The notes beneath the pieces were generated by a model. It did not search any database, was not told where the DNA came from, and saw only the letters and a program-made list of their open reading frames with translations. Below, piece by piece: positions 8,431 to 60,800 of a DNA stretch of 64,000 bases. Source of the stretch: Sphingobacteriales bacterium (lineage in GTDB: Bacteria; Bacteroidota; Bacteroidia; Chitinophagales; LD1). The first letter of the stretch is position 1. The number at the start of each line of letters is the position of its first letter. The position numbers were made by a program, and so were the translations under genes. The stretch is from assembly GCA_018262795.1 (NCBI GenBank), contig JADFDM010000004.1, positions 123,155 to 187,154 of the forward strand. Reading direction: 5' to 3'.

Positions 8431-8438
8431 TGTAAGTC

Positions 8439-41435: not shown

Positions 41436-41705
41436 GTTACTTTTTGAATTGATGTGGGCGGACCGGACGGAGCCCTCCAAAAGTTTCCCGGTATTAGGAG
41501 CTCTTAAATGGTTTTTAGTTTCCCTAAGTAACTCTGTCATTAGGGTAAATGAAAAAATATTAAACATTACAAAGAACCTCTATAAAGTAAACGACTCCCT
41601 GACCGACTCTCCTTCTGCAAGCGAAAAACATCAATTATTCCCGCCAATGTTTCTCAAAATAATCGTTTGCACAATTATAGCTATAACGCTTTTAAATTTA
41701 AAAGT

Positions 41706-43046
41706 ATGGCGCTAAATATAAATTTCAATTTGAAAAATGGAAAACTTGCTAATGAAAGACCTATTAACCTTATAGCAAGATGGAATAACAGAAAACTGGT
41801 TTACTCTACACAAGAAAAAATTTTATCAAAACATTTCGAAACGGAGAAAGGAAAAAGGTATTTCCAAAGAGCAAACTCATCCTTAGCAGGCTTTTCTGAA
41901 TTGAACGCAAGATTGGATTACATTGAATCAACTGCTAATACTGTTTACAGAAAATTTTTAAACGACCAACATCGAATTCCCGAACCAGAAGAGTTTAAGA
42001 AACGTTTGGACGTTGTTTTAAGAAACGGGCAGGAAGAAGAGAAGAAGAACATGATGGAGTTCATCAAGTTTTTTATTGAGAATGCAGAAAAGAAAATAAA
42101 CAGAGATACTGGAAAAAAACTTGCCGTAGAAACTTTAAGGAAGTATAGGAACACTTTAAAACGACTTGAAGAGTTTTCCTCTCTCTATCGTGTAAAAGTA
42201 GATTTTGAAACTATTGACTTGAATTTTTACAATAAGTGGATAGAATACTTAACTATAGATCTACAGCTTTGCAATAATACTATAGGAGGATATACAAAGA
42301 CGCTGAAAGTATTTCTAAATGAAGCTACCGACCTCGGACTAAACACCAACCTAACTTTCAGAAATAAAAGGTTCAAAGTGCTTACTGAAAAAGTTCACAA
42401 AATCTATCTGAACGAAAATGAGCTTATTGAAATTTACAACCTCGACTTATCCGAAGATAAGAGATTGGGGCGGGTAAGAGATTTGTTTCTCGTTGGATGC
42501 TGGACAGGATTTCGCTTTGGTGACCTTGTGAACATTGCACCTGAGAATATAATCGGAAATAAAATCTCTATTAAAACCCAAAAGACGGGAGAGGTTGTAG
42601 TAATACCCCTTCATTGGATGGTTAAAAATATAATGAAATGCTATACAGACTATCCCAATTCGCTTCCTCCGGCAATCTCTAATACCAAAATGAACAAATA
42701 CCTGAAAGAAATTGCTTCTCAGGTTCCTTGTTTGCAAGATAAAGTGCAGTCAAATATTACAAAAGGAGGGAAACTACATACTGAAACAAGGTGTAAGTGG
42801 GAATACGTTACAGTCCATACAGCGAGAAGAAGTTTCGCAACAAATCTTTATCTCGAAGGAATTAGTTCGTTAACCATAATGAAATTGAGTTCCTGGAAAT
42901 CGGAAAAGGTGTTTTTATCTTACTTGAAAGCATCTGCCGAAGACAATGCCAATCTTTTACAAAAGCACTGGTCAGAAAAAGAAAAAGCCGGAGGCGTCTT
43001 GGAACAACAAAACTTATCTCCACATCAACCGCAGCTAACAAGATAA
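41706..43046 (+). CDS. Tyrosine-type site-specific recombinase/integrase
   Basis: N-terminal arm/SAM-like region; catalytic-type GCWTGFRFGDLVNI, VTVHTARRSFATNLYLEGIS, and C-terminal LSYLKAS; ATG at 41706. Confidence 0.92.
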   Translation: MALNINFNLKNGKLANERPINLIARWNNRKLVYSTQEKILSKHFETEKGKRYFQRANSSLAGFSELNARLDYIESTANTVYRKFLNDQHRIPEPEEFKKRLDVVLRNGQEEEKKNMMEFIKFFIENAEKKINRDTGKKLAVETLRKYRNTLKRLEEFSSLYRVKVDFETIDLNFYNKWIEYLTIDLQLCNNTIGGYTKTLKVFLNEATDLGLNTNLTFRNKRFKVLTEKVHKIYLNENELIEIYNLDLSEDKRLGRVRDLFLVGCWTGFRFGDLVNIAPENIIGNKISIKTQKTGEVVVIPLHWMVKNIMKCYTDYPNSLPPAISNTKMNKYLKEIASQVPCLQDKVQSNITKGGKLHTETRCKWEYVTVHTARRSFATNLYLEGISSLTIMKLSSWKSEKVFLSYLKASAEDNANLLQKHWSEKEKAGGVLEQQNLSPHQPQLTR

Positions 43047-43049
43047 CAA

Positions 43050-43805
43050 ATGAGAAATTCGAAATTGCATTTGATAGGAACCTTCGACACTTACGAAACT
43101 GATGATATACCAAACGCAAAATCTGAATTGCTTCAACTTTTAAATAAACTAGATAAATGGACTTGTGATATTGTTATAGTTCAAAGCGAAGCCGGTAATG
43201 GTTCTACGCATCTACTCCATGCAGCGCTAGTAGAAATTGAAAAGCAAGGAAGACACGCTACGTTTACATACTCCCAGCGACTTTTACAAGCACAAGAATT
43301 TTACTGCACAGAAAAAGGAAGGTTTGTCTATGACGCACGAATACAAGTAAAGACGGAATTTTTTCTGATAGATGGTTGCCACTATTGCGAATCGAAGCCG
43401 GTTTATTACAACTACTTTGTTGGACTTTTAAGGTCTTCAATTAAGCGAGGTGTAAAAATTATTCTTTCAGCAAGGACAGGAAGTTTTATGCAGTTGATTC
43501 AAGATTTTCCGAACTATCATGTTGTTACTTCTGAATTTCCTACTGCTCTACCTCTCTATAATATCATACACATATTGTTCACTTCACACCAGGAATACTG
43601 GAAAGATTTTCTACTAACAGAAGAAACGCAAGTAAGAGCAGTTTGCGCGTTTGCAAATCAATCTTACAATTCGGTGAGACTTTTAGAAACTATGGTATTA
43701 ACGTTTCTCGCAAGTCTCTACCTTGGGAAAATAAAATTGCAAAACGATAACATAGAACCTGTGATTAAAGAATATGTAAACACATTTATTATCAAATATG
43801 GTTAA
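43050..43805 (+). CDS. DnaA/Hda-like ATPase-fold protein with degenerate Walker A
   Basis: VIVQSEAGNGSTHLLHAALVEIEKQGRHATFTYSQRLLQ...FFLIDGCHY resembles the DnaA GxGKTHLLHA...LLIDD layout but lacks the P-loop Lys. Confidence 0.5.
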   Translation: MRNSKLHLIGTFDTYETDDIPNAKSELLQLLNKLDKWTCDIVIVQSEAGNGSTHLLHAALVEIEKQGRHATFTYSQRLLQAQEFYCTEKGRFVYDARIQVKTEFFLIDGCHYCESKPVYYNYFVGLLRSSIKRGVKIILSARTGSFMQLIQDFPNYHVVTSEFPTALPLYNIIHILFTSHQEYWKDFLLTEETQVRAVCAFANQSYNSVRLLETMVLTFLASLYLGKIKLQNDNIEPVIKEYVNTFIIKYG

Positions 43806-44100
43806 GCAAGTTATACTGACTATTCCTATTCAGGAATTTGAAACGATCATCCGCGACTGCGTTCGGAGTGAACTAAAAAATAACAAAGGTGAACCTCCAA
43901 AAGCCGAAACAGATTTCATACGTGCAAAGGAAGCGGCAGCAATGCTGAAAATCTCCAGACCAACATTGGCTAAATTCACCCGCAACTCGCTCCTGAAAGT
44001 TTACAGAATCGGTCGTACTATTCGCTACAAAAAGGACGAAATAGAAAAAGCTGTTGAGCCAATCCGTGTTATAAAACATTCAAGACTCCAGGTTGGCTAA
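43798..44100 (+). CDS. Helix-turn-helix (MerR/excisionase-like) protein
   Basis: DFIRAKEAAAMLKISRPTLAKFTRNSLLKVYRIGRTIRYKKDEIEKAVEPI. Confidence 0.85.
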   Translation: MVKQVILTIPIQEFETIIRDCVRSELKNNKGEPPKAETDFIRAKEAAAMLKISRPTLAKFTRNSLLKVYRIGRTIRYKKDEIEKAVEPIRVIKHSRLQVG

Positions 44101-44298
44101 ATGGCTATGGAGAACTCAAAAAGCAACCGCAGATTAAAAGTTTATCCTAAATACAGGTTAGGTAATTCCAAGACGGTAATGGTGCCAGAGATACGATTAT
44201 GCGGTAAGTGGCTTCGAGAATTAGGGTTTCAATCCGGGCATACAATCAATATAGAAACAGAAGAAAGAAAGATTACGATTACGATATGTAGCTATTGA
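44101..44298 (+). CDS. SymE-like toxin-family protein
   Basis: RRLKVYPKYRLGNSKTVMVPEIRLCGKWLRELGFQSGHTINIETEERKITIT matches the SymE pattern (AbrB-like fold). Confidence 0.75.
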   Translation: MAMENSKSNRRLKVYPKYRLGNSKTVMVPEIRLCGKWLRELGFQSGHTINIETEERKITITICSY

Positions 44299-44710
44299 TA
44301 ATTATGAAGAAAAAACCAAAAACGAACAAAAGGCTTTTACTTTTACATCAAATGAAATGCGTATAGAAACATAAAAGAGTTATCATAAAGAGATAGCGTA
44401 GCTTACTGATTCTTGTCTTGAAAACAACCAAATTTATAATGTGCAAGGAACAGTTTGAATACGCACCCTTTGGGGTGTGGCTTCATTCTTTGTTCGTGCA
44501 CAAGGGGCTTGGTTGTCCTTCAAGACCGAATGTAAGTCTGAGGTTCACGCCCCTCTTGTTTTATAGCAAACCCGCCATTGAAACTCTGGCAACATTAGAA
44601 TGTATGTCGAACAATAAAAGAGAGTTCATCAAGAAAAGTCGTCCGCCTAATCGTTTTCAAAAAACTTAGAAGCAGCCAAAAAATTTTATTCAAATCAAAA
44701 AAATTAAAAC

Positions 44711-45730
44711 ATGAAAAAAATCACAGTAATACTTCTTTGCATTTTATCCATCACCTTAAATGCACAAAGACAGTTAGAGATAATTACGAAAAACACGATG
44801 GATGGACAAAAATCTGGGATGGTAGACAAAGTTACGAGAGATACAATTTTAAAAGTTGTTTACGATAAAATCAATACTTACTCAGAAGGGTTTCTTGACG
44901 TTCAACAAAACAATAAGTGGGGAATAGTTGATGCTGGCGGTAAGACTATTTTACCTTGCAATTACAATTACATCCAAAACGTTCATGATGGAAGATTGTT
45001 CGCGGCTCTCACAGATAAATTTGCCCTATTCGATAACACCGGCAAAAAACTTACTGATTACATTTTTGATTACGCCTCCTTTTTCTCAAACGGAGTTGCG
45101 CTGGTTCAAATGAATGGGAATCCTTCAATTGGAGCTATAAACAAAGCCGGAACTTTGATTATCCCATGTAAGTTTAGTAAGAACGATCCGATAAAGAACG
45201 GGATAGTGACTTTATACACGGATAAATGGGAAACTTTTAAAACTTATAATGTTGTTCAGTTTGGAAAAGTAATTGATCAGGTTAATGTAGGAACTACCCT
45301 CAACATTCCAATCATATTCAACAATAAAGGGAAGGTGATTTATAAAAGTGTTCGTGATGAATCGGTACACATAACTGATGCCTCAATAATTGTCACAACT
45401 AAAACGTTGGGATGGAATGAACACATCAGTCAAATGATAGATAGCTCCGGAAAGATACTAATCCCATATGAAGACAATAAGTATTTAGAGGTTGATGACT
45501 ATTGGATTCAGGTTCATAGCAAAACTGGCGTAGGTCTTATTGGATTAGATGGAAAAGAAATTTTGAAGTGTAAGTTCGGAAGTATTATCAAAGCGGGAAT
45601 GAATTACAGCGACAGAGAACTATTGGAAAAAAATTGGTATGAGGTGCATTTCAGAGATGGAAACGATTTCTTTTACATTGATACAAACGGAAAATGTGTG
45701 GAGTATAAAGATGTTAAGTGCCCAGAATAA
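44711..45730 (+). CDS. WG-repeat-containing secreted protein
   Basis: Signal peptide; NNKWGIVDAGGKTILPCNYNYIQN, GAINKAGTLIIPCKF, GLIGLDGKEILKCKF repeats. Confidence 0.8.
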   Translation: MKKITVILLCILSITLNAQRQLEIITKNTMDGQKSGMVDKVTRDTILKVVYDKINTYSEGFLDVQQNNKWGIVDAGGKTILPCNYNYIQNVHDGRLFAALTDKFALFDNTGKKLTDYIFDYASFFSNGVALVQMNGNPSIGAINKAGTLIIPCKFSKNDPIKNGIVTLYTDKWETFKTYNVVQFGKVIDQVNVGTTLNIPIIFNNKGKVIYKSVRDESVHITDASIIVTTKTLGWNEHISQMIDSSGKILIPYEDNKYLEVDDYWIQVHSKTGVGLIGLDGKEILKCKFGSIIKAGMNYSDRELLEKNWYEVHFRDGNDFFYIDTNGKCVEYKDVKCPE

Positions 45731-45931
45731 GACATAACAAACAACATTATTTCGTCAAAATCAAAAACATGAAAATCATACTGCAGAAGCAAATGGAATG
45801 TAGAACGGTATCTAACGTGTTTCAAGTCAGATATGGGGTAAGTAAAAAAATAAAAACTTGACTATCAAAATTTAAAAATTCCAAATGTCGTTGTTTAAGA
45901 ACTTCAACTTGAAAACCTACAATGAAATATT

Positions 45932-45960
45932 ATACAAATGAGCCAATGGCTCATTTGTAT
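45932..45960. repeat. 29-bp perfect palindrome (14-bp arms, single central base)
   Basis: atacaaatgagccaatggctcatttgtat; nested within outer caacttga (45905-45912) and tcaagttg (45968-45975). Confidence 0.9.
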
Positions 45961-46556
45961 TTATAAGTCAAGTTGCCAATGCTATCTGTAGTAAGTTGTA
46001 ACTGTTTCCTTTAATATCTCACTGCCAGCTAGCATTTTATTTGTTTTTCTTATTCTGCTTCATTAAATCTTTGCTCTCAATCCTCTTTCATTTACAGCCA
46101 TACTGACCGCACTGACTTGTTGGCTGTTTTTGTTTGATAGAGGCATTTGAGTGGCTGTGTCCGTTGGGCGGAGCCCGCTAACACTTCTTGAATATGCTGA
46201 CAATTTAGCAGAAGGTATTGATGCTTAATTTTGGTCGAAATTTTTTTTCCCATTAAGAACCTCGCGCTATAAAGTGCAGCACACGGTCGCCATCCGAAAC
46301 GCCCCCCCCTTGGGGTTGCCGTTGGCCTTTGGCACTGGCTTCTTAATTGATGTATAGCTGCCTATATGAAAAGGCAGTTACATCAAAGCTCAAATCTCGA
46401 AATTATCCTTCCTGGGTTGAATTTCGATTTTGAAATTCATAAGAAAAAGCCTCCGTAGTTTTTTAATCCTTCTCATAATCATCAGCAGGCTGGTAAAAGA
46501 TAGCTGAGCTAAAAAGTTTATGAGCGTTTTTATTACTAACAAAAAATAAAATCAAA

Positions 46557-46850
46557 ATGAAAAAGAAAGATTACTACCCGGATTTATACTGTATGGACTG
46601 CGGCAAGAAGATAGGCAAGAAACGAACCGGTCAACTCCACAACGTAACAATGTTTCGTGACAAGATGGTGAAAGCAACCGGACATCTAAACCTAATCATC
46701 TGCGACAAGTGCGGAGAAAAAATGTTTTCTGCATTATCAAAGACACCTTTTAACAGGAAGTATGGTATATGGCTCTCGACACCTCATCCCGATAAAAAAC
46801 AAGAACGTTGGGATACTGTATTTGAGATAAGTAGAGGTCACAGTGCTTAA
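46557..46850 (+). CDS. Small putative zinc-binding protein
   Basis: CMDCGKKIGKK and ICDKCGEKMF paired CxxC motifs. Confidence 0.6.
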   Translation: MKKKDYYPDLYCMDCGKKIGKKRTGQLHNVTMFRDKMVKATGHLNLIICDKCGEKMFSALSKTPFNRKYGIWLSTPHPDKKQERWDTVFEISRGHSA

Positions 46851-46872
46851 TTTTTAAATAAGCAAAATTCTC

Positions 46873-47172
46873 ATGCCTCAACATCAGGTATCACAGATTT
46901 ACTCCGAAAAGGAGTTGAGAGAAATCTTTAGGGAGGAACTCCGAAACGGGTTAAACATTTATTTCGGCAACCTTCCTAAAGATACTTCGGATTTTATCGG
47001 GACTAAGGACGCCCAAAAAATATTAGGCATCAGTAGTCCTACAATGACGAAGTATGTGCGTATGGGTTTTTTGAAACGGTATAGGATTGGGCACACTTAC
47101 CGATATAAAAGGGATGAGGTAATCAAATGCTTACAGTCAATGCCGTCCGTGAAACATTCAAGAAATAATTAA
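46873..47172 (+). CDS. Helix-turn-helix (excisionase-like) protein, paralogue of 43798..44100
   Basis: DFIGTKDAQKILGISSPTMTKYVRMGFLKRYRIGHTYRYKRDEVIKCLQSMPSVKHSR. Confidence 0.85.
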   Translation: MPQHQVSQIYSEKELREIFREELRNGLNIYFGNLPKDTSDFIGTKDAQKILGISSPTMTKYVRMGFLKRYRIGHTYRYKRDEVIKCLQSMPSVKHSRNN

Positions 47173-47196
47173 ACAAACTTTTAAAAATTAAACTTT

Positions 47197-48672
47197 ATGA
47201 ACAACGAAATAGAAAACGTAAAATTTACTGAAATTTTTGCGCCCGAAATTGATTTTGAAGAAGAAGAGGGTACTGGGAGAATTCAACCAGAAAAAATGGT
47301 TGAGCATGTGAATGAACAGATAGAGTACACTCGAGCGGAAATAATGACCACCGAAAACGAGTTTCCGCTAAATGTACTCCCATTACCGCTTCAGGCAATA
47401 GTAAAAGATACGCATGAAAATCTTGGTTTCCCCGTAGATTTTATCGCAGGGGGAATTCTGTTTGCTGCATCTGGTGCTATTGGCAATACCTATGGGGTCG
47501 AAGTGAAGCGGGATTACGTTGAGAGTGCTTCCATTTTTATTGTTCTTGTTGGTCCGGTAGGCTCGAATAAAAGCCATCCGATGAAATATGGCATTAAACC
47601 CATAAGCGATGAAGACCAAATATCTTACTCTCAATACGAAAATGATAAGGAAACTCATAAACGCAATATGGAATTGTCAAAAAAGGAACGAGAGGAGGAA
47701 GGAATTCAAGATCCAAAACAACCTATTTGGAAGCAACATATTGTCTCCGATGCGACATTAGAAGCATTATTTGAAATACATCATCATAACAGACGTGGCG
47801 TGATTTATTACGTGGATGAAATAATTGGATTGTTTAAAAATTTCAATCGCTATAACAAAGGTAGTGACCAAGAAACTTTTTTAAGTCTCTTCAATAACAA
47901 CCCAATAAACATTTCTCGTAAATCTTCTGATCCAATTTTTCTTACAAAGACTTTTATATCCATAGGCGGAACCATACAAAATGGTGTATTAGTCCAATTG
48001 GCTAAAAATAATCGCCTCGAAAATGGATTAATAAGTAGAATACTTTTTGTAAAACCTAATGGAGTAAAAAAAATGCCTTGGAGTAAATCCAGTCCAAAGG
48101 AGCAAACCTATGAAAGTTACAAAGCGATAATTTTGAGGCTACTGAGTTTACCATGTAGGTATGATGAAACATTAACCCCAACTCCCCGAATACTTCGGTT
48201 TACACCCGAAGCCAAAGAAAGTCTTTATTCATGGCAACGGGATAACGCTACAAAGGTTAATACAGCAGAGACAGAAACCATAGCTGGGATATTTAGTAAG
48301 TTAGACATCTATGTTTCTAGGCTCGCTTTAATATTACACTTATTGACATGGTCTAGCGGGGAAGATAATGGTCAGCCCATTGACCAAATCGGAGTTACAG
48401 CAACCGAGGGTGCTATCAAGTTAGTTGAATATTTTCGAGAGTGTGCTTTACAAGTCAACTCAATTATTTCCAACGATAATCCTCTTGATAAGCTTACGGT
48501 TGACAAGCGACAACTTTATGAGGCATTACCAACAAAATTTACGACCGGTGAAGGTCTTGTAATAGCAATTCAGCTAGGAATCCCCGAAGACACTTATCAA
48601 AAGTGGTTAAAACGTGAGGTAGGAAATCTCTTCAAAAAACCTAAAAAAGGGGAGTATGAAAAAATTGTTTAA
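47197..48672 (+). CDS. DUF3987-like domain protein (mobile-element primase/helicase-like)
   Basis: FPLNVLPLPLQAIVKDTHENLGFPVDFIAGGILFAASGAIGNTYGVEVK...VGPVGSNKSHPMKYGIKPI...VYYVDEIIGLFKNFNRYNKGSDQETFLSLFNN. Confidence 0.8.
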   Translation: MNNEIENVKFTEIFAPEIDFEEEEGTGRIQPEKMVEHVNEQIEYTRAEIMTTENEFPLNVLPLPLQAIVKDTHENLGFPVDFIAGGILFAASGAIGNTYGVEVKRDYVESASIFIVLVGPVGSNKSHPMKYGIKPISDEDQISYSQYENDKETHKRNMELSKKEREEEGIQDPKQPIWKQHIVSDATLEALFEIHHHNRRGVIYYVDEIIGLFKNFNRYNKGSDQETFLSLFNNNPINISRKSSDPIFLTKTFISIGGTIQNGVLVQLAKNNRLENGLISRILFVKPNGVKKMPWSKSSPKEQTYESYKAIILRLLSLPCRYDETLTPTPRILRFTPEAKESLYSWQRDNATKVNTAETETIAGIFSKLDIYVSRLALILHLLTWSSGEDNGQPIDQIGVTATEGAIKLVEYFRECALQVNSIISNDNPLDKLTVDKRQLYEALPTKFTTGEGLVIAIQLGIPEDTYQKWLKREVGNLFKKPKKGEYEKIV

Positions 48673-48753
48673 CCCATTATCAATTACGGCAATTAGGGCA
48701 GTTAACGCTTCCTTATTGCCGCAATTGCCATAACTGACAGCTAAAAATTAACT

Positions 48754-49749
48754 ATGAATGAACATCGCTACACACTAGAGTCCTATATACGCAAAGCAAT
48801 CCGGATTCGCTGCACCATATGTCAAGATAGTAGAAAGACCTTTACGCGCTATGTTGACACTGAGACCGGAGAATACTTGGCGGACCATGTTGGCAAATGC
48901 AGTCGGGAAATTAAGTGTGGTCATCACTACCCACCCATCGAGTTTTTTAAGGAACCTAGAGTAATACCTGTTGACGAAGCAAACCTTTTTGGAAGACCTT
49001 CTAAAAAGGTCTCTATTAACGAACATCCGGAAACTAAATCGTCTATTGATAGTTCAATATTTCAGGGAAGTCTGAAACATTATGAATTAAACAAACTGGT
49101 CAAATTTTTAGAAACCCGTTTTGGCAAGTCGGTAGTTAAAAATTTGGTTGAAAAATATTACATAGGTTCTTCAAAGCATTGGAATGGAGCTACGGTATTC
49201 TGGCTGGTGGATGGAGATAATCAAATACGAAGCGGTAAAGTAATGCTATATGATCCGACCACTGGCAAAAGGGTAAAAAAGCCACGTAATAAAATCAATT
49301 GGGTGCACTCGGTTTTGGATCTAAAAGGCTTTAAAGTGGAACAATGCTTATTTGGTGAACATTTGCTTAACGGTAATTCCAAGCCAATTGGAATTGTTGA
49401 GAGCGAGAAAACAGCGCTTATTGCAAGCGTTTATTTACCTCAGTTGACCTGGTTAGCAACCGGAGGTCTCTCAAATCTAAATGAGCGTGTTTGCAAACCA
49501 CTCACCGGACGCAACGTTTGCTTATTTCCGGATGTCCAAGGATTTCAGAAGTGGAGCGATAAGGCAAAAAAACTTTCAGGAATTACAAATTTTAAAGTCT
49601 CCGATCTGTTAGAAAAAAATGCTTCTGAACAAGAACGCGAGCAAGGATTAGATTTAGCCGATTATTTACTCAGATTTGATTACAGAGATTTTTTAAAACT
49701 TCAGAATCTGGAAATTGAACAACCGGTGACTGCCAGTATTGCCTTGTAA
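48754..49749 (+). CDS. DUF6371/Toprim-like mobile-element protein
   Basis: N-terminal Cys/His region (CTICQDSR...CSREIKCGHHYPP), IGIVESEKTALIASVYLPQLTWLATGGLSNL, VCLFPDVQGFQKW. Confidence 0.75.
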   Translation: MNEHRYTLESYIRKAIRIRCTICQDSRKTFTRYVDTETGEYLADHVGKCSREIKCGHHYPPIEFFKEPRVIPVDEANLFGRPSKKVSINEHPETKSSIDSSIFQGSLKHYELNKLVKFLETRFGKSVVKNLVEKYYIGSSKHWNGATVFWLVDGDNQIRSGKVMLYDPTTGKRVKKPRNKINWVHSVLDLKGFKVEQCLFGEHLLNGNSKPIGIVESEKTALIASVYLPQLTWLATGGLSNLNERVCKPLTGRNVCLFPDVQGFQKWSDKAKKLSGITNFKVSDLLEKNASEQEREQGLDLADYLLRFDYRDFLKLQNLEIEQPVTASIAL

Positions 49750-49867: not shown

Positions 49868-51124
49868 TTAATGACTGAAATCATTATAAGTATCGAAGTA
49901 ATCACTATAACTTGTATCATCATAATCAGAGTATTCATATTCTGATTCCGATAAATTACTTTTAGAGTCAATCGCCTCCATCAATTGTTTTAACTCAGTA
50001 TGTTTTTCCTTAAAATAATTGTATTTCATTTTGGTTGGCAAGCATTCAACATTAGCATTTGATTTTGATCTAACGATAAATGCTTGGCAGCCGAAATTGC
50101 AAATTTTAGAAGCAGAACACCCTCCACAATCAAACCAACTTGTCGGAACAAGATTTTGAAACCTATCTACCGAACTTGTAAAATTTTCTTCTTGAATATT
50201 TTCTTGAATATGTCCAAGAAAATATTGTTTGTCATTCCAGTTAAAACGGCCACAAGGCAGTATTTCTCCCTCATGACTAATTCCTAAAACTCTTTTACCT
50301 GCACCGCAAATTTTACTACCACACAATTCACTTCCATGATGTGCTTGCGCGGAGTCATCCCTAAAGTATTTTTTAATCTCCCTAACTAGGTTTTGCTCAA
50401 CTACCCGACTTGCTTTCGTTTCAATTAGATAGTCAATTATGGTCTTATGGGCTTCAAATACCATTTCGGGATTCATATCTTTTAGCCGTTGTCCATTCCC
50501 AACAGAATATACGGTATTTGCTTTGAAGGCTTTCACTTTTAACTCATGTTCTAGCCAGTGAAGAATTTGGTTAAAGTAGTTAAAGTTGGACTGGTTTATA
50601 GTCAAGAGAACACTAGGATTAAGTCCCATTTCTTTAGCCTTAATAAATGTTCTATTTGCCTTTTCAGCATTCTCGCGCAATGAGGATTTTATTGAAGATG
50701 GCCCATCCAAACTTGCACATAAATGAATGCCTAAGTCGTTGAATAATGCTAGTTTCTTTTCAGATATATTGACAAAATTCGATTGCAACCCAAAAACCGC
50801 CTTTTTGCCGTAATAGGATGCCCTCTCATTAGCGAACGAGACAGCATTTTTATACCAATCCATCTCCAATATAGTTGGTTCCCCTCCGTGAAAAATAAAC
50901 TGTACTCTTTTACTTAATGTTGAGCATAATGTTTTTTCTACGATCTGTTCAAATATTGTCTTATCCATTCGTCCGCCGTGTTTCGAAATGTTCTCATAAC
51001 AATAAGAGCAGTCAATGTTGCATACGTTCGTTACTTTAATAATAAGAGCTGAAACATTAATAAACCTGAAATCATTAGCCTCTCTTGTAACTTCTCGGAA
51101 ATTTTTAATTGTTGTCATGTTCAT
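49868..51124 (-). CDS. Radical SAM/SPASM-domain peptide maturase-like enzyme with C-terminal Y-x-D repeat tail
   Basis: CNIDCSYC (CX3CX2C); SPASM cysteines CGAGKRVLGISHEGEILPCGRF...CGGCSASKICNFGC...C (includes CX2CX5CX3C); tail EYEYSDYDDTSYSDYFDTYNDFSH. Start set at ATG 51124, 5 nt after the upstream stop. Confidence 0.9.
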   Translation of the reverse strand: MNMTTIKNFREVTREANDFRFINVSALIIKVTNVCNIDCSYCYENISKHGGRMDKTIFEQIVEKTLCSTLSKRVQFIFHGGEPTILEMDWYKNAVSFANERASYYGKKAVFGLQSNFVNISEKKLALFNDLGIHLCASLDGPSSIKSSLRENAEKANRTFIKAKEMGLNPSVLLTINQSNFNYFNQILHWLEHELKVKAFKANTVYSVGNGQRLKDMNPEMVFEAHKTIIDYLIETKASRVVEQNLVREIKKYFRDDSAQAHHGSELCGSKICGAGKRVLGISHEGEILPCGRFNWNDKQYFLGHIQENIQEENFTSSVDRFQNLVPTSWFDCGGCSASKICNFGCQAFIVRSKSNANVECLPTKMKYNYFKEKHTELKQLMEAIDSKSNLSESEYEYSDYDDTSYSDYFDTYNDFSH

Positions 51125-51129
51125 GAATT

Positions 51130-51864
51130 TTAATTTTCCCAAAAGGGACTATTAGGCACAATGGTATTTTCGATATTCAAAATTTTAAATGCAATGGTCG
51201 TTTGGACGCTATTATCCAAAAGAGGAGACTCTTCTACTTTATCCTTAAGCAATTTGTATCTACTTTCTATTTCGTTGATTTTTTTTATTGCATTTATCTG
51301 GTCTTCGATTTTTAGTTTATAGAAATGGATAAATTTTATTCTAAGGAAATTTTTAAATGATTTTTCGTCTGATTTAAACAAATAAATCTGTCGAGAGGCA
51401 AAGTCAAGAGTTTCTAAAACGTAACAAATATCCTTTTGAAATAATCTTCCTTCATTTAGTAAGGTGTTATTGAGATTCATCTTTGTTGCAACGAAGGCAT
51501 CTATAGCTTTATATCCACTGGCTCCGTTAAAATTCAGTTTTTCAACATCATTTATTACCTTTTCGATTAACCCTTCTATCTGCTCATAAAGCTTTAAAAC
51601 GTTATTTCTCTCTATATCTTTTTGCAAATAACCATTTGCTTTAATTTGTTCTTTAAAAGAATAAAACACCAAAATAGCCCCAAGCAGATTTACAAAAGGC
51701 GCTGTAATACCTCCTATAGTATCACCTATCTCTCCCTTTCCAGAGAAATCGCACCATTCCCATAATGCGGGTCTGGTCAGAACAAACGGGCCAACAAACG
51801 TCAGCAAAAGTCCTACAACAAGTAGTAAGTTAGGGCTGAGTATATATTCTCTTTTATTTCCCAT
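51130..51864 (-). CDS. Two-TM membrane protein, possibly related to putative phage abortive infection (AbiC-like) proteins
   Basis: LLLVVGLLLTFVGPFVL and FVNLLGAILVFYSFKEQIKAN TM segments followed by a helical cytoplasmic domain; GEIGDTIGGITAPFVNLLGAILVFYSF layout. Confidence 0.55.
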   Translation of the reverse strand: MGNKREYILSPNLLLVVGLLLTFVGPFVLTRPALWEWCDFSGKGEIGDTIGGITAPFVNLLGAILVFYSFKEQIKANGYLQKDIERNNVLKLYEQIEGLIEKVINDVEKLNFNGASGYKAIDAFVATKMNLNNTLLNEGRLFQKDICYVLETLDFASRQIYLFKSDEKSFKNFLRIKFIHFYKLKIEDQINAIKKINEIESRYKLLKDKVEESPLLDNSVQTTIAFKILNIENTIVPNSPFWEN

Positions 51865-51901: not shown

Positions 51902-54670
51902 TTATGTTTCTTCCTCAAAGTTCAACCCTAACTGTTTAGCCGACTCTTTTGCCACTTTATACTCCTGACTCGATTCAGTAATTGGTTTTGATGCTGTCGA
52001 TTTCCCTTTGATACGGATTTCAATTTCTATGTTGTTTTGTGAAAGAGGCATGATGAAACCCGAAAACAAATTCGTGTATTGCTCTAAAGGAACCTTGCCA
52101 GAGATGGTAATTGATTTGATTTTTTTCGCTGAATTGTTGTCATCCTTTGTATCCGTTGTCGTATTGTTCCCAGAATCATTCCAAGTTGCAGGAGGAGTGT
52201 CAATATCCGGTGTATCATTTCCTGCTGTTGAAGTTTGTTGTGGCTGCGGTTTTAAGCTTTTATCAATAAGCCAATAAGTAGTGTCGTTTATATCGAAGAA
52301 GGAAACACTTTCCTGTAAGAAGTATTTTGTAAAGTTTTTACCATCACCGGTTGCAATGCAGTACTCTCCGTTGAAACAATACTTCAAAATACTTTTCTCA
52401 ACTGCCTCCGTTCCTGTTATCATCGGCTTATCATCAAAGCGAATGAATGCTTCGTAAATGTCGTTTGCGCGAATGGGTTGTTCAACTGTTGGAAAAAGAT
52501 TGTTGCTTTTCAAAGTCCCCAATCCTACTGATTCCAGGAGCCATTCTTCTTCTTTAAGTGCAGCAATAATGTTGTTGTTGATTTGGCTTTCTAAGTTGTC
52601 TTTGAATTGTTTAATCACTAGCTTCTCCATTCCGTTTTTTACAGAATACTTTAGTATGATTGAGTAAGCGGAAACCAATGAAATATCTGCTTGCTTATTG
52701 TGGTCGTCTATTTTTCTTCTGATTTCCTCTTTCTGCTCTTTCTCTAACTGCGAATTGTATTCGGAACTGATTTTCTGACAAGCCAAATAATTTCTCAAAT
52801 CATCCTGCAATTTGCCGAAACCATTTTCAGAACAACCGAGAAACAACATGGTGTTGCGATAAATTCTTTCGCTGTTACCTTTTTTGGTTGCTAATTTTTC
52901 AATCAGGTTTTTTGTGCTACCGGATATTTCATTGGGATTGGCTAAGTATTTAGGACTTAGAATTACAAGTGTAGGTCTCTTTTGTTCCGGTATATCTTCC
53001 GATGGATTCACGAGTGTATTAAACAATTGAACCAATCTTGTTTTCTCTGAAATTCGTTTTAGAATTTCCGCAATGATGTCGTTTGATTTAATGTCGCCCT
53101 TGCCCTGATTGATTAAGATGTTGATGTTTGGAGTAGTATCAAACCAAAATCTTTTTTGTCCTGTGGAGTTATAATACAAATAATGTGCATTGGTCTGCAT
53201 CCTGTCAAGAGCACCGTTTATGTCGTTATGGTTGAAACCTTCGGGTTTTACCATGCAGAGTTTTATTTCATCTATACCCACCCCCTTGTTTTGACCCTTT
53301 GAACCGAAGGTTCCCATAAGGATTGTTGCTGCTGCTCCTTGTGAGATGTTGTGGGCACCAAGACCTTTTACTTCATTATCAATTTTGAAAGCATTAGATG
53401 AAGTGCCCGAAATATCTGCATTAATAACAGCATCCCAACTCGGACCATTTAAGATAGTAATTTGACTTGTGAGTGATTCAAGATTTGAAAGAGTTACATC
53501 GGATGTATGAATTAGGAACTGGCTACCGGTTAGAGATGTTTGCCTTTTCCATAGATCAGAAATTATAGACGCTAAAATTCTAAGCACCCCTCTTGTCCGT
53601 TGAAAATACGGATTGCTTGCCCAACGTAAGCGGAACATATCAATCAATTCAGGATGGAAAGGGTATGATTTTTTTAATCGTTCCTTGTAATCAGTTTTTA
53701 ATGCATAAGCTGGAATCTCGGTAAGCATTGACTGATACATGATAGCATAGGCACTAATTACCTTCTCTATTTCCCTTTCATCTCCCAAATCTTCAAACAA
53801 CCTTCTACGCACTACTTCAAAAATTTCATCATCCTCTACAGGCTTCATATTTGCACCTACTCTTGTAATTCTGTTTTCAAGTGCTGTAAGAATTTGAGAG
53901 GAAACCGGTGAAGCAGCCAATTCCTGAGCACTTGCCGGAAGAGTTGCAATCAATACGCATTGGTCTGTTTCGGAAACTGCTTCGGTGAGTTCCTGCATGA
54001 AACTGACCGTTTGGTCGCTGAGGTTTGACGCTTCTACTTTTACTGCCGATGCACTTACACAGTAATCAGCCAACTCGTCAATGAGTATTAAAGCTGGTTT
54101 GCATTTCTCTAATACTTTTTTGAAAAGCCCTTTGGGCGCAATTCGTTTTTCATCGTTTACCCTAATGATTTCATAGGCTTCTTTCCCTCCTAACTGGTAA
54201 GCTAATTCCCCCCATATAGTTTGAATAGTAATGCCATTTACTTTTCTGCCTTGGGCAGGATCGTTGGTAGTGTTAGTGAAAACGGCAATGTGTGCGGTAT
54301 CAAATTTAGGCGCACCGGTGAACGCAATTAATTCTTTTGTGTTTTCGCTTTTAGTTGCTGTTTTGCCCCACTTCGCCAAATGATAAAGTGATATTAAGGT
54401 GTGTGTTTTACCACCACCAAAACCAGTTTGTAAAGAAATTACCCTATTGTCTGCATCTTGCCCTCCGTTTAAGCCATGAACTACTCTTTTGGCAATATTT
54501 TTTAGGGCAGCGGTAAAAAATGTTTTCTGAAAAAACATTTCGGGGCTAGTGTAAATTTCTCTCCCCTTACCGGATGCAACTTCAGCAAGGTTGGCGGCAA
54601 AAACCGATTCATCCAAGTGTCCATCCTGAATATCTTTGTGGGGCTTTACGTTTTTAAACCAGGGTTTCAT
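51902..54670 (-). CDS. DUF499-family ATPase (anti-phage-associated type)
   Basis: Walker A LQTGFGGGKTHTLISLYHLAK; Walker B ALILIDELADYC; N-terminal PHKDIQDGHLDESVFAANLAEV typical of DUF499. Confidence 0.88.
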   Translation of the reverse strand: MKPWFKNVKPHKDIQDGHLDESVFAANLAEVASGKGREIYTSPEMFFQKTFFTAALKNIAKRVVHGLNGGQDADNRVISLQTGFGGGKTHTLISLYHLAKWGKTATKSENTKELIAFTGAPKFDTAHIAVFTNTTNDPAQGRKVNGITIQTIWGELAYQLGGKEAYEIIRVNDEKRIAPKGLFKKVLEKCKPALILIDELADYCVSASAVKVEASNLSDQTVSFMQELTEAVSETDQCVLIATLPASAQELAASPVSSQILTALENRITRVGANMKPVEDDEIFEVVRRRLFEDLGDEREIEKVISAYAIMYQSMLTEIPAYALKTDYKERLKKSYPFHPELIDMFRLRWASNPYFQRTRGVLRILASIISDLWKRQTSLTGSQFLIHTSDVTLSNLESLTSQITILNGPSWDAVINADISGTSSNAFKIDNEVKGLGAHNISQGAAATILMGTFGSKGQNKGVGIDEIKLCMVKPEGFNHNDINGALDRMQTNAHYLYYNSTGQKRFWFDTTPNINILINQGKGDIKSNDIIAEILKRISEKTRLVQLFNTLVNPSEDIPEQKRPTLVILSPKYLANPNEISGSTKNLIEKLATKKGNSERIYRNTMLFLGCSENGFGKLQDDLRNYLACQKISSEYNSQLEKEQKEEIRRKIDDHNKQADISLVSAYSIILKYSVKNGMEKLVIKQFKDNLESQINNNIIAALKEEEWLLESVGLGTLKSNNLFPTVEQPIRANDIYEAFIRFDDKPMITGTEAVEKSILKYCFNGEYCIATGDGKNFTKYFLQESVSFFDINDTTYWLIDKSLKPQPQQTSTAGNDTPDIDTPPATWNDSGNNTTTDTKDDNNSAKKIKSITISGKVPLEQYTNLFSGFIMPLSQNNIEIEIRIKGKSTASKPITESSQEYKVAKESAKQLGLNFEEET

Positions 54671-55617
54671 TAGTTAAATTTTTTAGTTGGAAGATGCCCA
54701 CCAATGTAACCTACAATGTATCTGTTGTTCTCTGGTAGCGGCATCGGATATAGGTAAATTCTTACATCTCCAAGTTTAGAGTGAAGAGAAAAAGTTCTTC
54801 GTACTTGATCGGGACATGTAAAAGTGCGTTCGTCACCATACATTGACATTGTAGTTTCTCCATCATTACTTACATCGCCAGGAATAGAACCAATTTCAGC
54901 TTCACCCCGATTCACTAAATTTAAATGCTGGTTTAATTGCATTAAATACCTCATGGCTTTTTTAAAGCTTGGGTTATTAACTGAGCCGAATAATTGAACT
55001 TGTTCGTTTACTTCATTAGCAAAATCCAACCATTGAAATACCATCGCGCGATTTGCCCAAAATGCATTAAAATCCTCTAACTCCTTTGCCGCAGTAGCTT
55101 GCTTTCTTCCAAATTCCTCTTGTATCCAATTCGAGTATTCTAACTCTTCTTCATTCTTCACACAGTGTTTAACTGTTACCTCTTCAATTACAACATCTGA
55201 ATCAGCATCCGGTAAATACTCTCTTGTAAGTCTATACTCGTTTTCTATCCAAACGCTGTTAGTTGAAAAACTTACAGAAACCAAATCATTCTCAAATGCA
55301 TAACCAAATCCTACTACATCTGTGTTAGCATGTTTAAAGTAAGGGTTATCTGCAATTAAAGGTTGCTGAGCTATATACCCCAAATATCTTTGACGAGTTG
55401 GATTTTCAAGAGTTTGAAGCCAATCCTTAATACAAAAAAATTGGTCGGATATAGAATTAGTGTTTATGTCGGTTGACGACCTGATTCTTACCGGAGCAAT
55501 TTTCAATTCAGTAATTGAATCAATCAACTGAAAAAAACTTTCAAACACACTTACCGCATGCCCCTTTGATGCAGCACGTTCGTAAAAACTTAATTCATTG
55601 AAGCCAACTTCTATCAT
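54670..55617 (-). CDS. Protein of unknown function in defence operon
   Basis: About 315 aa from MIEVGFNELSF; contiguous with both neighbours; no family recognised. Confidence 0.65.
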   Translation of the reverse strand: MIEVGFNELSFYERAASKGHAVSVFESFFQLIDSITELKIAPVRIRSSTDINTNSISDQFFCIKDWLQTLENPTRQRYLGYIAQQPLIADNPYFKHANTDVVGFGYAFENDLVSVSFSTNSVWIENEYRLTREYLPDADSDVVIEEVTVKHCVKNEEELEYSNWIQEEFGRKQATAAKELEDFNAFWANRAMVFQWLDFANEVNEQVQLFGSVNNPSFKKAMRYLMQLNQHLNLVNRGEAEIGSIPGDVSNDGETTMSMYGDERTFTCPDQVRRTFSLHSKLGDVRIYLYPMPLPENNRYIVGYIGGHLPTKKFN

Positions 55618-55622
55618 CGTTA

Positions 55623-56759
55623 TTATAATAGTTCCATCATTGAATATTCCCAAGAATCGAAGAAGTCTTTTGGCCAATTTTCAATTTTCCCTTTATTAGT
55701 AATCACAGGATATTCGATTACATGCTTTTGTTTGTCGTCTTCGGGTTTTGTTTTAAAAAATAATAGCCTAACTTGTTCAGGAGTAATTAGCTCTCGTTTT
55801 GCGGCAATTCTTACTCCGTTTAAAATATGGTCTGAATGAGTTTCAACTATAATTTGGACACCATTGGCTGCAGCTCTTGCTAATAATATTCCTAATTCGA
55901 CCTGGCCTTTCGGATGGATATGAGCTTCGGGGTTTTCCAACAACAATATTGTTCCAGGCTCAGATGCCAATACTGCAAGAATTAGAGGAAAAACGTAGGT
56001 CAATCCAAACCCAACGTTGTTTGCTCGATATGCTCCCGGATTATCCTTAGATACCAAAAATTCAAACTGAAGAGTAATGGTTCCCGCTTCGGGTTGGTCT
56101 TTGATTCGAGCTTGCGCCCCAGGTCTTATAACACTCAACCATTGGTTTACTTGAGAATAAAGAGATGGGTTAGGATCTGCCTCATTCCCATTTGCATCCC
56201 GATTTGTATATTTTAAATTTTCAATCGGAATCTTCTTTTCACGATATACGCTAAAGTAGTTGGCGGCAAATTCACCACGAACACCTAGTTGATTCTGATG
56301 CATTACTTTAGTGGAGGACGTTTCGTAATAAGGACGTGGGCCAATTCGCTCAGCACTTAAATAGTGAAAGTTGCTAGTAAACAATGGGACTTTACTTAAG
56401 TCCGTGCCCATATTAGTATTGGCAATTTCAATGAGTGAATCGAGATTATCATCTGCCCTCCATACCCAGCCTAATGTAACACCTGGATTGTACGTAAACG
56501 TTATACCTATTTCCTTCTTCTTAAAATAGCGATACAATATATCGTTACTATTACCAATTTGTGTGTAATCACCATTTAAGCCTAATCTATGATTCAGGTG
56601 AAGAAGGCCATTCTCAAAATTTTGCCTCAACAATAACAGCGACTGAATTACCGAGGATTTACCCATGCCATTAAGACCGGTAAGTAGATTCAGGTTTGAT
56701 AAATGAATGGGTTCATCTTCAAAGCATTTGAAGTTTTGAAGTCGCAACGTTTTAATCAT
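55623..56759 (-). CDS. OLD/DUF3696-like AAA (ABC-type) ATPase
   Basis: LTGLNGMGKSSVIQSLLLLRQ, LSAERIGPRPYY, TILLLENPEAHIHPKGQVELG, VETHSDHILNGVRIA. Confidence 0.88.
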   Translation of the reverse strand: MIKTLRLQNFKCFEDEPIHLSNLNLLTGLNGMGKSSVIQSLLLLRQNFENGLLHLNHRLGLNGDYTQIGNSNDILYRYFKKKEIGITFTYNPGVTLGWVWRADDNLDSLIEIANTNMGTDLSKVPLFTSNFHYLSAERIGPRPYYETSSTKVMHQNQLGVRGEFAANYFSVYREKKIPIENLKYTNRDANGNEADPNPSLYSQVNQWLSVIRPGAQARIKDQPEAGTITLQFEFLVSKDNPGAYRANNVGFGLTYVFPLILAVLASEPGTILLLENPEAHIHPKGQVELGILLARAAANGVQIIVETHSDHILNGVRIAAKRELITPEQVRLLFFKTKPEDDKQKHVIEYPVITNKGKIENWPKDFFDSWEYSMMELL

Positions 56760-57894
56760 TGATAATTTCTTTTAAGAGATTCCTGATTTTATCGTGTCTT
56801 CTATTCACAGAAAGTGTGTCGCCCGTGCCGGAGGAGATAGAACGCAAAAAATCCGCATCTTTATTTGATAAATACATTAAACCTTGGTCAATTCGCCTCG
56901 CGTTGGCTATTAATTTCTTATGGTCGTTTTCACTTATAAGAGCTAAAGCAACGGAAATGCACTCAAATAAAGCTTTATTCACAGGCCTTCTTCTCTCTCC
57001 ATCCTCGTATTTTTTTCTAAAAGCGTATTTGCCAAAAACCTGATTAGCCGTAACCATGGCCCTTTTAAATCGAGTTTTAATATCAGCGATTTCAGCAGGA
57101 GTTTTAGAATTTACTTTAGCCATCCCCCTATTCAGAAAAGAATCAAGGTCTGGCTCATAATTTTCCTTATCAAGATAAAAAGAAAGGAACCGAGTTGTGT
57201 AATCACGGTCTTCCATGCGATCACTCGGAACATAACCTCCCATAGCTGTTATAAACTCCGGCATACGTGCTAGCTCTGCCACCAATTTTGCAGGTTCACC
57301 TTGGTTTAATGCGTGGCGAATTTCTTGAGGGGTAAGAACAAGACCACCTGTATTAATGCGTTTGAAAATATTGAATTTAGCCTCATAAGGAGTCCCCGGA
57401 TTAATAATATAAGCCGTCACATGGGTTTCTTCGACTCTTGATTTAAGATACTCAGGAAAATCATCCCATCCGAAGCCCTCGTAGTTTTTCAAGTATTCCA
57501 AACCCACTAACTTGAAATTCTTTTCAATAATAAAATTCTTCAAGGTGCTAACTCTTTGCAGTCCATCTACAATTAACCAAATATCCTCTGTTGCATCAAA
57601 ATAAAAAGCAGGCAATGGGATTCGAACAAGTAAAGATTCTATCAAACGACTTTGGGCAACTATGCTCCACAAATTTGCCTTACGCTGAAATTCCGTATCC
57701 ATTTTGATCCGCATGGGATCGCTTTGCAATCTTTTAATAATTGATTGAATAGTTAACGGTTGTGGTCTAATGTCAATTTTGGTTGGATCAAATGGATGTT
57801 TAATAGATGTTTCGCCAGTCTTTTCCGTTTCCGCGAAAGGAACTTGGTCTAAAGCTTCATCGTCCGCTTTCCGTAAATTTTCTATCTCTCCCAT
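56752..57894 (-). CDS. DUF262 (GmrSD N-terminal, ParB-like) domain protein
   Basis: WLIVDGLQRVSTLKNFI (DGxQR), FKRINTGGLVLTPQEIRHAL. Confidence 0.9.
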   Translation of the reverse strand: MGEIENLRKADDEALDQVPFAETEKTGETSIKHPFDPTKIDIRPQPLTIQSIIKRLQSDPMRIKMDTEFQRKANLWSIVAQSRLIESLLVRIPLPAFYFDATEDIWLIVDGLQRVSTLKNFIIEKNFKLVGLEYLKNYEGFGWDDFPEYLKSRVEETHVTAYIINPGTPYEAKFNIFKRINTGGLVLTPQEIRHALNQGEPAKLVAELARMPEFITAMGGYVPSDRMEDRDYTTRFLSFYLDKENYEPDLDSFLNRGMAKVNSKTPAEIADIKTRFKRAMVTANQVFGKYAFRKKYEDGERRRPVNKALFECISVALALISENDHKKLIANARRIDQGLMYLSNKDADFLRSISSGTGDTLSVNRRHDKIRNLLKEIIND

Positions 57895-60800
57895 TACTCA
57901 AACATTTTAATTTGTTCAACCTGCGCTCCTTGCACGGTTTTGCTTTCACGAATTAAACTTTCTTTATTGGTGAGCAAACCTAATGCTTGTTTTTGGTCTT
58001 CGCTGCCTGCGGGTAATACCTCGCAAAGTGAAGTGACTACTCTCCAAAAACTGTTCTCCGGTTGTGCTGCTTCTTTTGCAATGTAATGCAAAAGTGCATT
58101 ACGATTGGTGCCTTTGTAAAGTGACATAGCTTTATGCACTGTATCTATTAAAAAATTGTTTGCCCGCTCACCCAAGTTTTTATTGGCAGCAATACGTTCT
58201 TCAAAAGTTGCAAGGGTTTGTTTGTTGCCATTTTTAGTAAGAATGTGTTCAGTAAAAAGTTCCGACACATTGATGCTTAAACCTACTCTTGAAAACTTCG
58301 CTGCATCATCAAAATCACTTTCTGCAAAACTGTAAAGCTGTAACCAACCAATATAAAACTTAGTGAAATCATCTCCATCAAAACCCTTAAGCAAGGCATT
58401 GAAAGCACTCTCTCTTGCCATTTCTAAAAGTTCTGCGACAGTTACTTCACTACCATCTGCTTTTTCTACCTTTTCATATTTACCAAACTCACTTACTGCC
58501 TGACCAAAACAAGCCGTTAATAAATCTGCACCACGAAAACCTAATTTGTATAATTCATCAACTTCCTTTTCAACCGTTTTTTCTATCGCTTTTTTCACCT
58601 CTTTAAATTCCCCCAAACCTGTTTTTATGGATGGGGTGCAAGTAACTGTAACTGAAGAGGAGAGAAATGCTTTGTTGGTTTTTAATGCTACTGTTTGTTC
58701 TGTGTCAATAGCCCAACTACCCGTGATGTTCATATTACCACCTAAAATTGAATTACAAAGTGTTGTCCACGCCTCGGTGCTTTGATGGGCAAACATAATG
58801 CTCACTATATCTTTCGTTTGCTTTTCTATCAGTGAGAGAATCTCTAACAATTTATTTTCAAAATGTTTCACTGCTTGTTTCTTGTCACCGTCAAAGTGAG
58901 ATTTGATTGCGGTGCATTCATCCGATTTCGGAGTCAAGGGGGTTGAAAAATTGTAAGTATAAATATGCCCTATACTTCTCTTTAACCAAACGTAATAAAA
59001 GTCCGAAAGGTCGGCATAAGCAATAGCATCATAGTATGGAGGGTCTGTTACAACTGCATCAATTTCCTTATTCGAAAATTGTTGGTGAGTGCCGCTCGAA
59101 GTATTGACGCAGTTTGAATAATTAAAATGCTGACCTTCACTTTCTACAAGATTTACTATTGGTTCTATTTGACCAAAAGCACTACCGGACAAAGTGCTGA
59201 AGGGATTCATTTCAGGATAATCGAAAACCATCGGGATAGATTTATTACCGAAAGGATGTTCTACTGTCTCTTGCAGCACATGCCAAACACTGATGCTCGT
59301 ATATCTTGTAATTATTCTATCAATAAATATTGAGATATAGGTCTGTAAACATTTAGAATAATCTGGCTCAAAAAATGATGACCGTTCTTTGAATAGTTTT
59401 AGCTGATTCTCAATAAAACTATTTATGATAGCCGCTTGACGATCATTAAATAAATCACCGTATTTTTTTATACCCCACAACGGAACTTTGACATTTTGAG
59501 AGTCATTTGTAGGCATTAACTCTTGAGGTCTTTCAGTTTGAATAGCAGTTACGGTTAAGTCTTCAGTCGGGCTTTCATAAGACCTATCACCTTTTTTATT
59601 CTCATAAATTATCGCAAGCAATTTTTCTTTGATGCCTTCCGAATTAAATTGACGCTTAATTTCCTCAACTTTTGTAATACTTCCACAACAAGGACACTTC
59701 AAATTACCTTCCTTATTCCAACCTAACTCTTCACAAACACCACGCTTTACTTTAAAGGAAATTTTCTTTCCGGAAATTGATGGCTCTAAGTAATACCAAT
59801 CAATTGATGAATAATTTCTCCTTTTTGAGATGTAAAATTGTCTTAGTAAAGGAACTTCAGCTTTGCATGTTGGGTTAGAACAAGTGCCCAACCTTGCCCA
59901 ATAATAAATCAGCGGAATAGAGCCATCTTTTTTGCTTGGATATAAATACCCAAATTTCTCCTTTGTCTGCTCAATTAAATGTTTTGAAAAGAAATCAATG
60001 TCAAAAGAAAGGCGGTTGGGAATTCTTACTCCACTAAGATTGCCATTCTCATACACAAAATTTTCCGCCTCTAATTTGTTCCATTCGGCTTTGCCATAAA
60101 GTTTCATGAATTCGGCAATGCTGTAAGTTATCGGTTTGCCAAACTTCTGCGGAAATTCTAAACTCCCCTTTTGTATAATATGTGCAACGGGGTTAATATC
60201 ATTTCCAAAACTTCTACAACCTAATCGTGCTGCTTCTAAAGGTATAGCGCCACCACCGGCAAAAGGATCAAATACCTTAGGCATTTTGTTTAGGAATGCC
60301 TCAATAGCTTTATTTAAATTGACTGTTGCCTGCTGAGTATTACCAGAGCATAAATGACGGTCCGTAATAGAATAGAGTTCTTGTTCGGCTTTTTTTATTG
60401 CCTGATAGTGAATATCAAAATCTCTCAGCAAATCTGTCGCAGAAAGATTGCTGTTGTCATTACTGTTGTGCGAAACCCAAATCAGTTTTCTTGCCTTACC
60501 AAGTATTCGTTCATCGTCCTTTTTCTCCCATTTTATTAAACTGTAATCGCTAATAAGTTTTGCTGTTGGCGTTGCCTTACCTGCTTTTTCGTTTGTAGAA
60601 TACTCTATAGAAAATTTACCAATGAACATCATTAACCGGTTGCGAAGGTTATCTTCCATTTTGTCAATGGCAGCGGTATAAGGAATATCATCATAGGGTT
60701 TATAAGCATTTGCATTTATGCCTTGTTCGTTCAGTGGTTTTTTTGCACTACCTAATAAAATTTCAACTGCATCGCGAAACTGTTGCGGACAGTTTTCATC

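Follow-up and report, generated by a model that had tools for sequence, protein, structure and literature searches.

Triceptide maturases are radical SAM/SPASM enzymes that crosslink residue i of a substrate with residue i+2. The enzyme YxdB is reported to link C3 of Tyr to the beta-carbon of Asp, a radical SAM Tyr-Asp carbon-carbon crosslink (PMC11002830). In borosins, e.g. omphalotin, an autocatalytic enzyme modifies its own C-terminal core, both being parts of one chain (PMC7878506), and Kaur et al. (2020; PMC7159879) describe SPASM enzymes with FxSxx peptide substrates from NTP-dependent conflict systems. The subject here is a radical SAM/SPASM enzyme that carries an array of Tyr-x-Asp (Y-x-D) units at its own C-terminal end. 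It is encoded in a 64,000-nucleotide stretch of DNA from a Sphingobacteriales bacterium (assembly GCA_018262795.1, contig JADFDM010000004.1, positions 123,155 to 187,154; 'the window' denotes this whole stretch). The enzyme probably cross-links its own tail, which would make it a self-modifying variant of known peptide-stapling chemistry.

The enzyme and its Tyr-x-Asp tail

The gene and its parts are as follows.

49868-51124, minus strand: radical SAM/SPASM peptide maturase, 418 aa (Pfam Radical_SAM, 3e-9; relatives at 38-46% identity)
50999-51022, minus strand: CX3CX2C radical SAM cluster motif, C35/C39/C42, invariant in 12 relatives
50042-50308, minus strand: SPASM domain, C273 to C361, with all auxiliary-cluster cysteines and the signature CGAGxxxxGIxxxGxIxPCGRF
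49871-49951, minus strand: C-terminal tail with five Y-x-D units, the proposed in-cis substrate (disorder prediction; like-placed tails in relatives L032, L038 and L039)
49880-49933, minus strand: span of all five Y-x-D units, from codon positions
49925-49933, minus strand: Y398-S-D
49916-49924, minus strand: Y401-D-D
49901-49909, minus strand: Y406-S-D
49892-49900, minus strand: Y409-F-D
49880-49888, minus strand: Y413-N-D

An ATG at 51124 is the most likely start (giving the 418 aa) and is preferred over a TTG at 51142; scans for promoters and terminators near the gene gave counts close to shuffled levels. Radical_SAM is the sole Pfam domain. The CX3CX2C motif and the full SPASM set, both claimed in an original prediction made from the DNA letters, are present, with all seven SPASM cysteines in place (C273-x12-G-x4-C291, C333-x2-C336-x5-C342-x3-C346 and C361), and alignment with relatives shows that catalytic and SPASM cysteines are all retained. 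The top NCBIfam matches are SPASM peptide maturases, every one under its cutoff. The named families of cyclophane formers likewise stay under theirs: GrrM/OscB at 63 of 310 bits, XyeB at 42 of 450, FxsB at 40 of 370, YhhB at 59 of 445 and AmcB at 65 of 425. The core is well modelled, and its nearest solved folds are anSME, the closest with a TM-score of about 0.7, and SPASM maturases of ribosomally synthesized and post-translationally modified peptides (RiPPs), which act on peptides or proteins. Residues 390-418, the tail, are predicted to be disordered.

The C-terminus reads SESEYEYSDYDDTSYSDYFDTYNDFSH, with codons at 49871-49951 and a TAA stop at 49868-49870. The five motifs, their codons and their coordinates are exactly those of the original prediction, in which the tail was put forward as a substrate in cis. 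Five of the six Tyr residues of the tail stand in Y-x-D units. Shuffles of its own residues give a mean of 1.24 units (P = 0.0003; five or more in 0.03% of shuffles), and Y-to-D spacings other than 2 occur 0-2 times each. An origin as a DNA microsatellite was considered and is ruled out by codon heterogeneity, as Tyr and Ser codons are mixed.

Are there other arrays that the enzyme might act on? Translation of the window in all six frames yields no further array of three Y-x-[DN] units. Nor is there a small precursor open reading frame adjoining the enzyme gene, in agreement with what had been stated before. Pattern searches of the bacterium's own genome for adjacent Y-x-D-Y-x-D gave 14 pairs vs 7 for a reversed-pattern control; the pairs outside the enzyme gene are isolated and lie mostly within ordinary proteins, and the enzyme tail is the sole multi-unit array among the matches.

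Relatives with tails in cis

No orthologue came from single-sequence searches of 150 relatives, 396 genomes of the phylum, plasmids, phages and viral contigs, or from a profile scan of the viral contigs. The family is rare and ordinary searches came back empty, so relatives were sought by motif: a degenerate DNA probe directed at the family's SPASM signature, its specificity tested beforehand, was scanned against 85,462 species and gave 25 loci, 13 of them true relatives (38-46% identity, E below 1e-88); the remaining 12, with BLAST E values of 2e-19 at best, encode other proteins or more distant enzymes and were either dropped or kept as outgroup. The hosts of the relatives are Cytophagales, Saprospira, a cyanobacterium (Okeania), a Chloroflexota metagenome-assembled genome (MAG) and unclassified MAGs. 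In the order where the enzyme is commonest, 9 of 194 genomes have it, and a search of 248 genomes of the cyanobacterial order found none besides the one already known.

Three relatives carry Y-x-D arrays after the SPASM domain: L032 from the cyanobacterium, with the tail SDYPDYQDEITYRDYQDYSDQFYKDSTYTDGGHGW, L038 from Cytophagales, with GYYDSYSDNPMYND, and L039 from an unclassified bacterium, where a 25-residue cassette is present twice and the Y-x-D units total ten. Tail lengths vary from about 20 to 86 aa. This retention of Y-x-D tails of variable length in relatives from other phyla supports the idea of an in-cis substrate. When the four tails are pooled, 25 of 29 Tyr residues are in Y-x-D units, with a highly variable middle residue and mixed codons. 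The two L039 cassettes differ by eight synonymous vs three nonsynonymous codon changes, and all Y and D residues are retained.

Could the tail be no more than an acidic, disordered extension that plays no part as substrate, the alternative that the original prediction had itself raised? Acidic low-complexity tails are common, and this one is predicted to be disordered. The explanation is nonetheless very improbable: a Y-to-D spacing of exactly 2 is enriched across four divergent tails, the units are kept despite synonymous drift, and, as described below, the motif can sit instead on the tail of a partner protein whose distribution among genomes follows that of the enzyme.

In the phylogenetic tree the window enzyme groups with L032, L028 and L039 in a supported clade (99/98) that spans several phyla, and L038 is placed apart, among Bacteroidota. 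This arrangement points to multiple origins of the enzyme-tail fusion, or to loss in between. The C-terminus of L028 (Anaerolineae), labelled 'notail' in the tree, is lost near a contig end, and its tail is not scorable. A search for a partner gene common to all tailed enzymes was negative; gene contexts differ. The L032 and L039 enzymes adjoin divergent NB-ARC NTPase genes. Beside the tailed enzyme of Okeania there is a YcaO protein with a winged helix, together with an NB-ARC NTPase (L175:2846-5404, 7771-9192), and in the L039 genome NB-ARC and TPR genes are found next to the tailed enzyme (L176:9712-12359).

A partner protein with the tail in trans

The untailed relatives, from Cytophagales and Saprospira, are usually accompanied by a membrane protein that has a TPM domain (PF04536, YgcG-like) and a C-terminal (YSD)n tail, which precedes an FGGGGASGDW-like end. 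It had been proposed earlier that a separate short reading frame with the same motif might replace a missing tail. A separate carrier does usually exist in the same genome, and sometimes it is adjacent, but it is a TPM membrane protein and not a small peptide. The YSD-tailed gene is 12 bp upstream of the enzyme gene in L017, directly downstream in L037, 3.3 kb away in L021, and elsewhere in the genome in L018, L019 and the two Saprospira.

L017:4531-5373; L021:3-677; L037:6176-7285; L043, L045, L046, L048, L054 and L059: YSD-tailed TPM proteins of Cytophagales/Saprospira

The YSD codons of these tails are likewise mixed. Other TPM proteins of the same genomes, paralogues of the YSD-tailed ones, have tails rich in Gly/Ser and free of YSD. 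In L087 and L121, from genomes that lack the enzyme, the TPM tails are Ser/Asp-rich (SSSSDTSSSDSS) and without Tyr, and resemble YSD tails minus the Tyr.

An order-wide control compared 194 genomes of one order, nine of them with the enzyme. A YSD-tailed TPM protein is present in six of the seven assessable genomes with an untailed enzyme vs none of 78 TPM loci, the best-scoring ones, of enzyme-lacking genomes (Fisher P = 1.6e-8). Outside the seven are L029, where a contig end truncates the TPM gene, and the tailed L038, which has no TPM match. The TPM search profile was built from YSD-bearing proteins, a bias that makes YSD easier to detect in the negatives. Relatedness is not corrected for in the counts, and two positives (G859 and G892) are close kin; with these counted once, the contrast stands. 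Close orthologues in the same operon setting, untailed and devoid of any Y-x-D peptide nearby, had been named at the outset as evidence that would speak against a substrate role. Untailed relatives do exist, and they do not refute the substrate idea because nearly all have a YSD-tailed TPM partner. The motif is carried by the enzyme itself or by a partner whose occurrence follows that of the enzyme from genome to genome, and it is therefore best viewed as the substrate, fused to the enzyme in some lineages.

The YSD-tailed TPM proteins are candidate full-size protein substrates and a finding in their own right. Their tails probably face the cytoplasm, the compartment of the enzyme, because a signal peptide is followed by a single helix after the TPM domain, with basic residues next. 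The untailed enzymes L017, L018, L021, L031, L035, L040 and L076 have a short C-terminal stretch, F-x-IKD-x-x-G-x-x-x-x-Y, that is absent from tailed enzymes; perhaps it is a docking element for the TPM partner.

Carriers in trans raise another prospect for the window enzyme, i.e. that its tail is a pseudosubstrate or docking mimic that sits in the peptide groove with an inhibitory or regulatory role, the real substrate being another protein. A substrate-like tail could autoinhibit the enzyme, and related enzymes apparently act on a separate protein. We regard this as quite unlikely: neither the six frames of the window nor the pattern search of the genome offers another multi-unit Y-x-D array, the tailed-enzyme genomes L032, L038 and L039 have no TPM match and so no such partner, and five to ten complete units are not needed for such a role. 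The window genome has a single TPM protein, without YSD.

Proposed self-modification

The reading we hold to be probable is self-modification, whereby a radical SAM/SPASM maturase has its substrate fused to its own C-terminus and staples that tail into Tyr-Asp cyclophanes. It builds on the tail, on conservation of Y-x-D in divergent tailed relatives, on the swap of the motif between cis and trans and on the co-occurrence of trans motif and enzyme. Given SPASM enzymes that crosslink i with i+2 and the Tyr-Asp report for YxdB, self-stapling is the best explanation. The 5'-deoxyadenosyl radical, with the auxiliary SPASM clusters, would oxidatively link each Tyr ring with the Asp beta-carbon at i+2, a bond type that we infer by analogy with YxdB. 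The product would be a tail with up to five three-residue cyclophanes, each with a loss of 2 Da. The tail that enters the active site might belong to the same chain or to another copy nearby, and the covalent tether would stand in for the carrier protein that untailed relatives use, the YSD array on a TPM tail.

Several points weigh against this reading. Modification of the tail is itself something we infer by analogy. The enzyme falls short of the NCBIfam cutoff for all named maturase families, those of cyclophane formers among them. The tailed enzymes number four, and there is no close orthologue of the window protein with which to gauge selection on its own tail. In the L040 genome, which has an untailed enzyme, no YSD tail was found, and the L029 genome is not assessable. 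A protease or exporter for a released product was not identified beside the enzyme gene.

The family scores also bear on the chemistry. The tail may be a substrate for some other reaction: an ether crosslink, beta-oxidation, epimerization or a Tyr modification without a crosslink. SPASM enzymes are chemically diverse, this one falls outside the named cyclophane-forming families, and among its nearest solved folds are anSME and sactipeptide maturases, whose chemistry is different. But the formers of three-residue cyclophanes use an i,i+2 aromatic-x-Asp with a free middle residue, and Tyr-x-Asp is the motif reported for YxdB (PMC11002830); a different reaction is unlikely, though deserving of consideration.

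If self-stapling is correct, the enzyme is a peptide cyclase of the radical SAM type that bears its substrate in cis, has no substrate-recognition problem and would be a single-gene test bed for cyclophanes. Cyclophane formation would then modify full-size cellular proteins, not secreted peptides alone, and the TPM partners suggest that the same crosslinking takes place on ordinary membrane proteins of Cytophagales and Saprospira.

Genomic context and a possible defence role

The enzyme gene is the last of a co-directional run that forms an Hma/Nsn-type defence operon. The gene order is HmaA-like helicase, HmaB-like methylase, NsnA/B/C-like genes, HmaC-like ATPase, small membrane protein and enzyme.

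57894-63994, minus strand: HmaB-like DNA methylase and HmaA-like helicase (PADLOC HmaB 5e-119, HmaA 5e-164), extending past the window end (L179)
54670-57894, minus strand: NsnC-, NsnB- and NsnA-like genes (PADLOC NsnC 5e-51, NsnB 5e-113, NsnA 5e-128)
51902-54670, minus strand: HmaC-like DUF499 ATPase, upstream in the operon (PADLOC HmaC 1.5e-153)
51130-51864, minus strand: small membrane protein P0002, 244 aa, with 5 bp between its end and the enzyme start

With NsnA/B/C-like genes between HmaB and HmaC (51902-63994, minus strand, and beyond the window), two catalogued systems are apparently interleaved. P0002 has N-terminal membrane helices, and its N-terminal region resembles proteins of conjugative plasmids and of a viral contig (L013); scans of domain and family libraries gave no family match. 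It is reminiscent of putative phage abortive-infection proteins, without a supporting Pfam match. As a substrate in trans P0002 was rejected, as it has no Y-x-D array.

On the other side, a mobile-element module converges on the enzyme gene (41667-49749, plus strand: tyrosine integrase, helix-turn-helix (HTH), DUF3987 and zinc-ribbon/DUF6371 genes). Because of the integrase, HTH and DUF3987/DUF6371 genes, the defence-enzyme block looks mobile. Further out, at 40314-41175 on the minus strand, two adjacent reading frames look like one Fic-family gene interrupted by a frameshift or stop, with the Fic match in the C-terminal part only.

Gene position suggests a defence role for the window enzyme. 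It is possible, if doubtful, that the self-stapling enzyme is a protein-bound effector, sensor or switch of an anti-phage defence operon and not a maker of natural products, and that its relatives staple TPM tails. More speculatively, the stapled protein and the neighbouring membrane protein might together serve the operon as effector or sensor. A conflict-system role can be tested, given how rare the enzyme is, its spread over several phyla and its position as the last gene of a defence operon.

Comparison with known systems

How does the locus compare with described systems? The borosins are alike in architecture, with an enzyme and a C-terminal core in one polypeptide, the core role here being a proposed one. 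Borosin enzymes, however, are S-adenosylmethionine-dependent alpha-N-methyltransferases; the window enzyme has no such domain, and the chemistry is unrelated. PapB ranthipeptide maturases give the best NCBIfam score, 118 bits (NF047865), under a cutoff of 340, but a PapB-type thioether is impossible because the tail has no Cys. The closest solved fold, anSME, would share with the present family an action on larger proteins in the TPM case. It differs in that the enzyme scores 99 bits vs a cutoff of 349, there is no sulfatase beside the gene and the substrate motif is another one. FxSxx conflict systems share a peptide-modifying SPASM enzyme and a conflict setting, with two tailed relatives beside NB-ARC NTPases; here, however, the motif is Y-x-D, the substrate would be in cis and the operon is Hma/Nsn-like rather than VMAP-ternary.

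The locus resembles triceptide maturases, especially YxdB (WP_226048651.1), in the SPASM radical SAM enzyme and the aromatic-x-Asp motif; YxdB is likened by its reported chemistry. The window protein has the radical SAM core with SPASM cysteines and the repeated aromatic-x-Asp/Asn at i,i+2, but is under the cutoffs of the named families of three-residue cyclophane-forming enzymes (3-CyFE) and has no separate small precursor beside it. Known triceptide systems use separate precursor peptides, whereas the present array forms part of the enzyme chain or is on a TPM-domain membrane protein. Membership in a named 3-CyFE family is not claimed; by analogy, the enzyme would work like a triceptide maturase that carries its substrate in cis.
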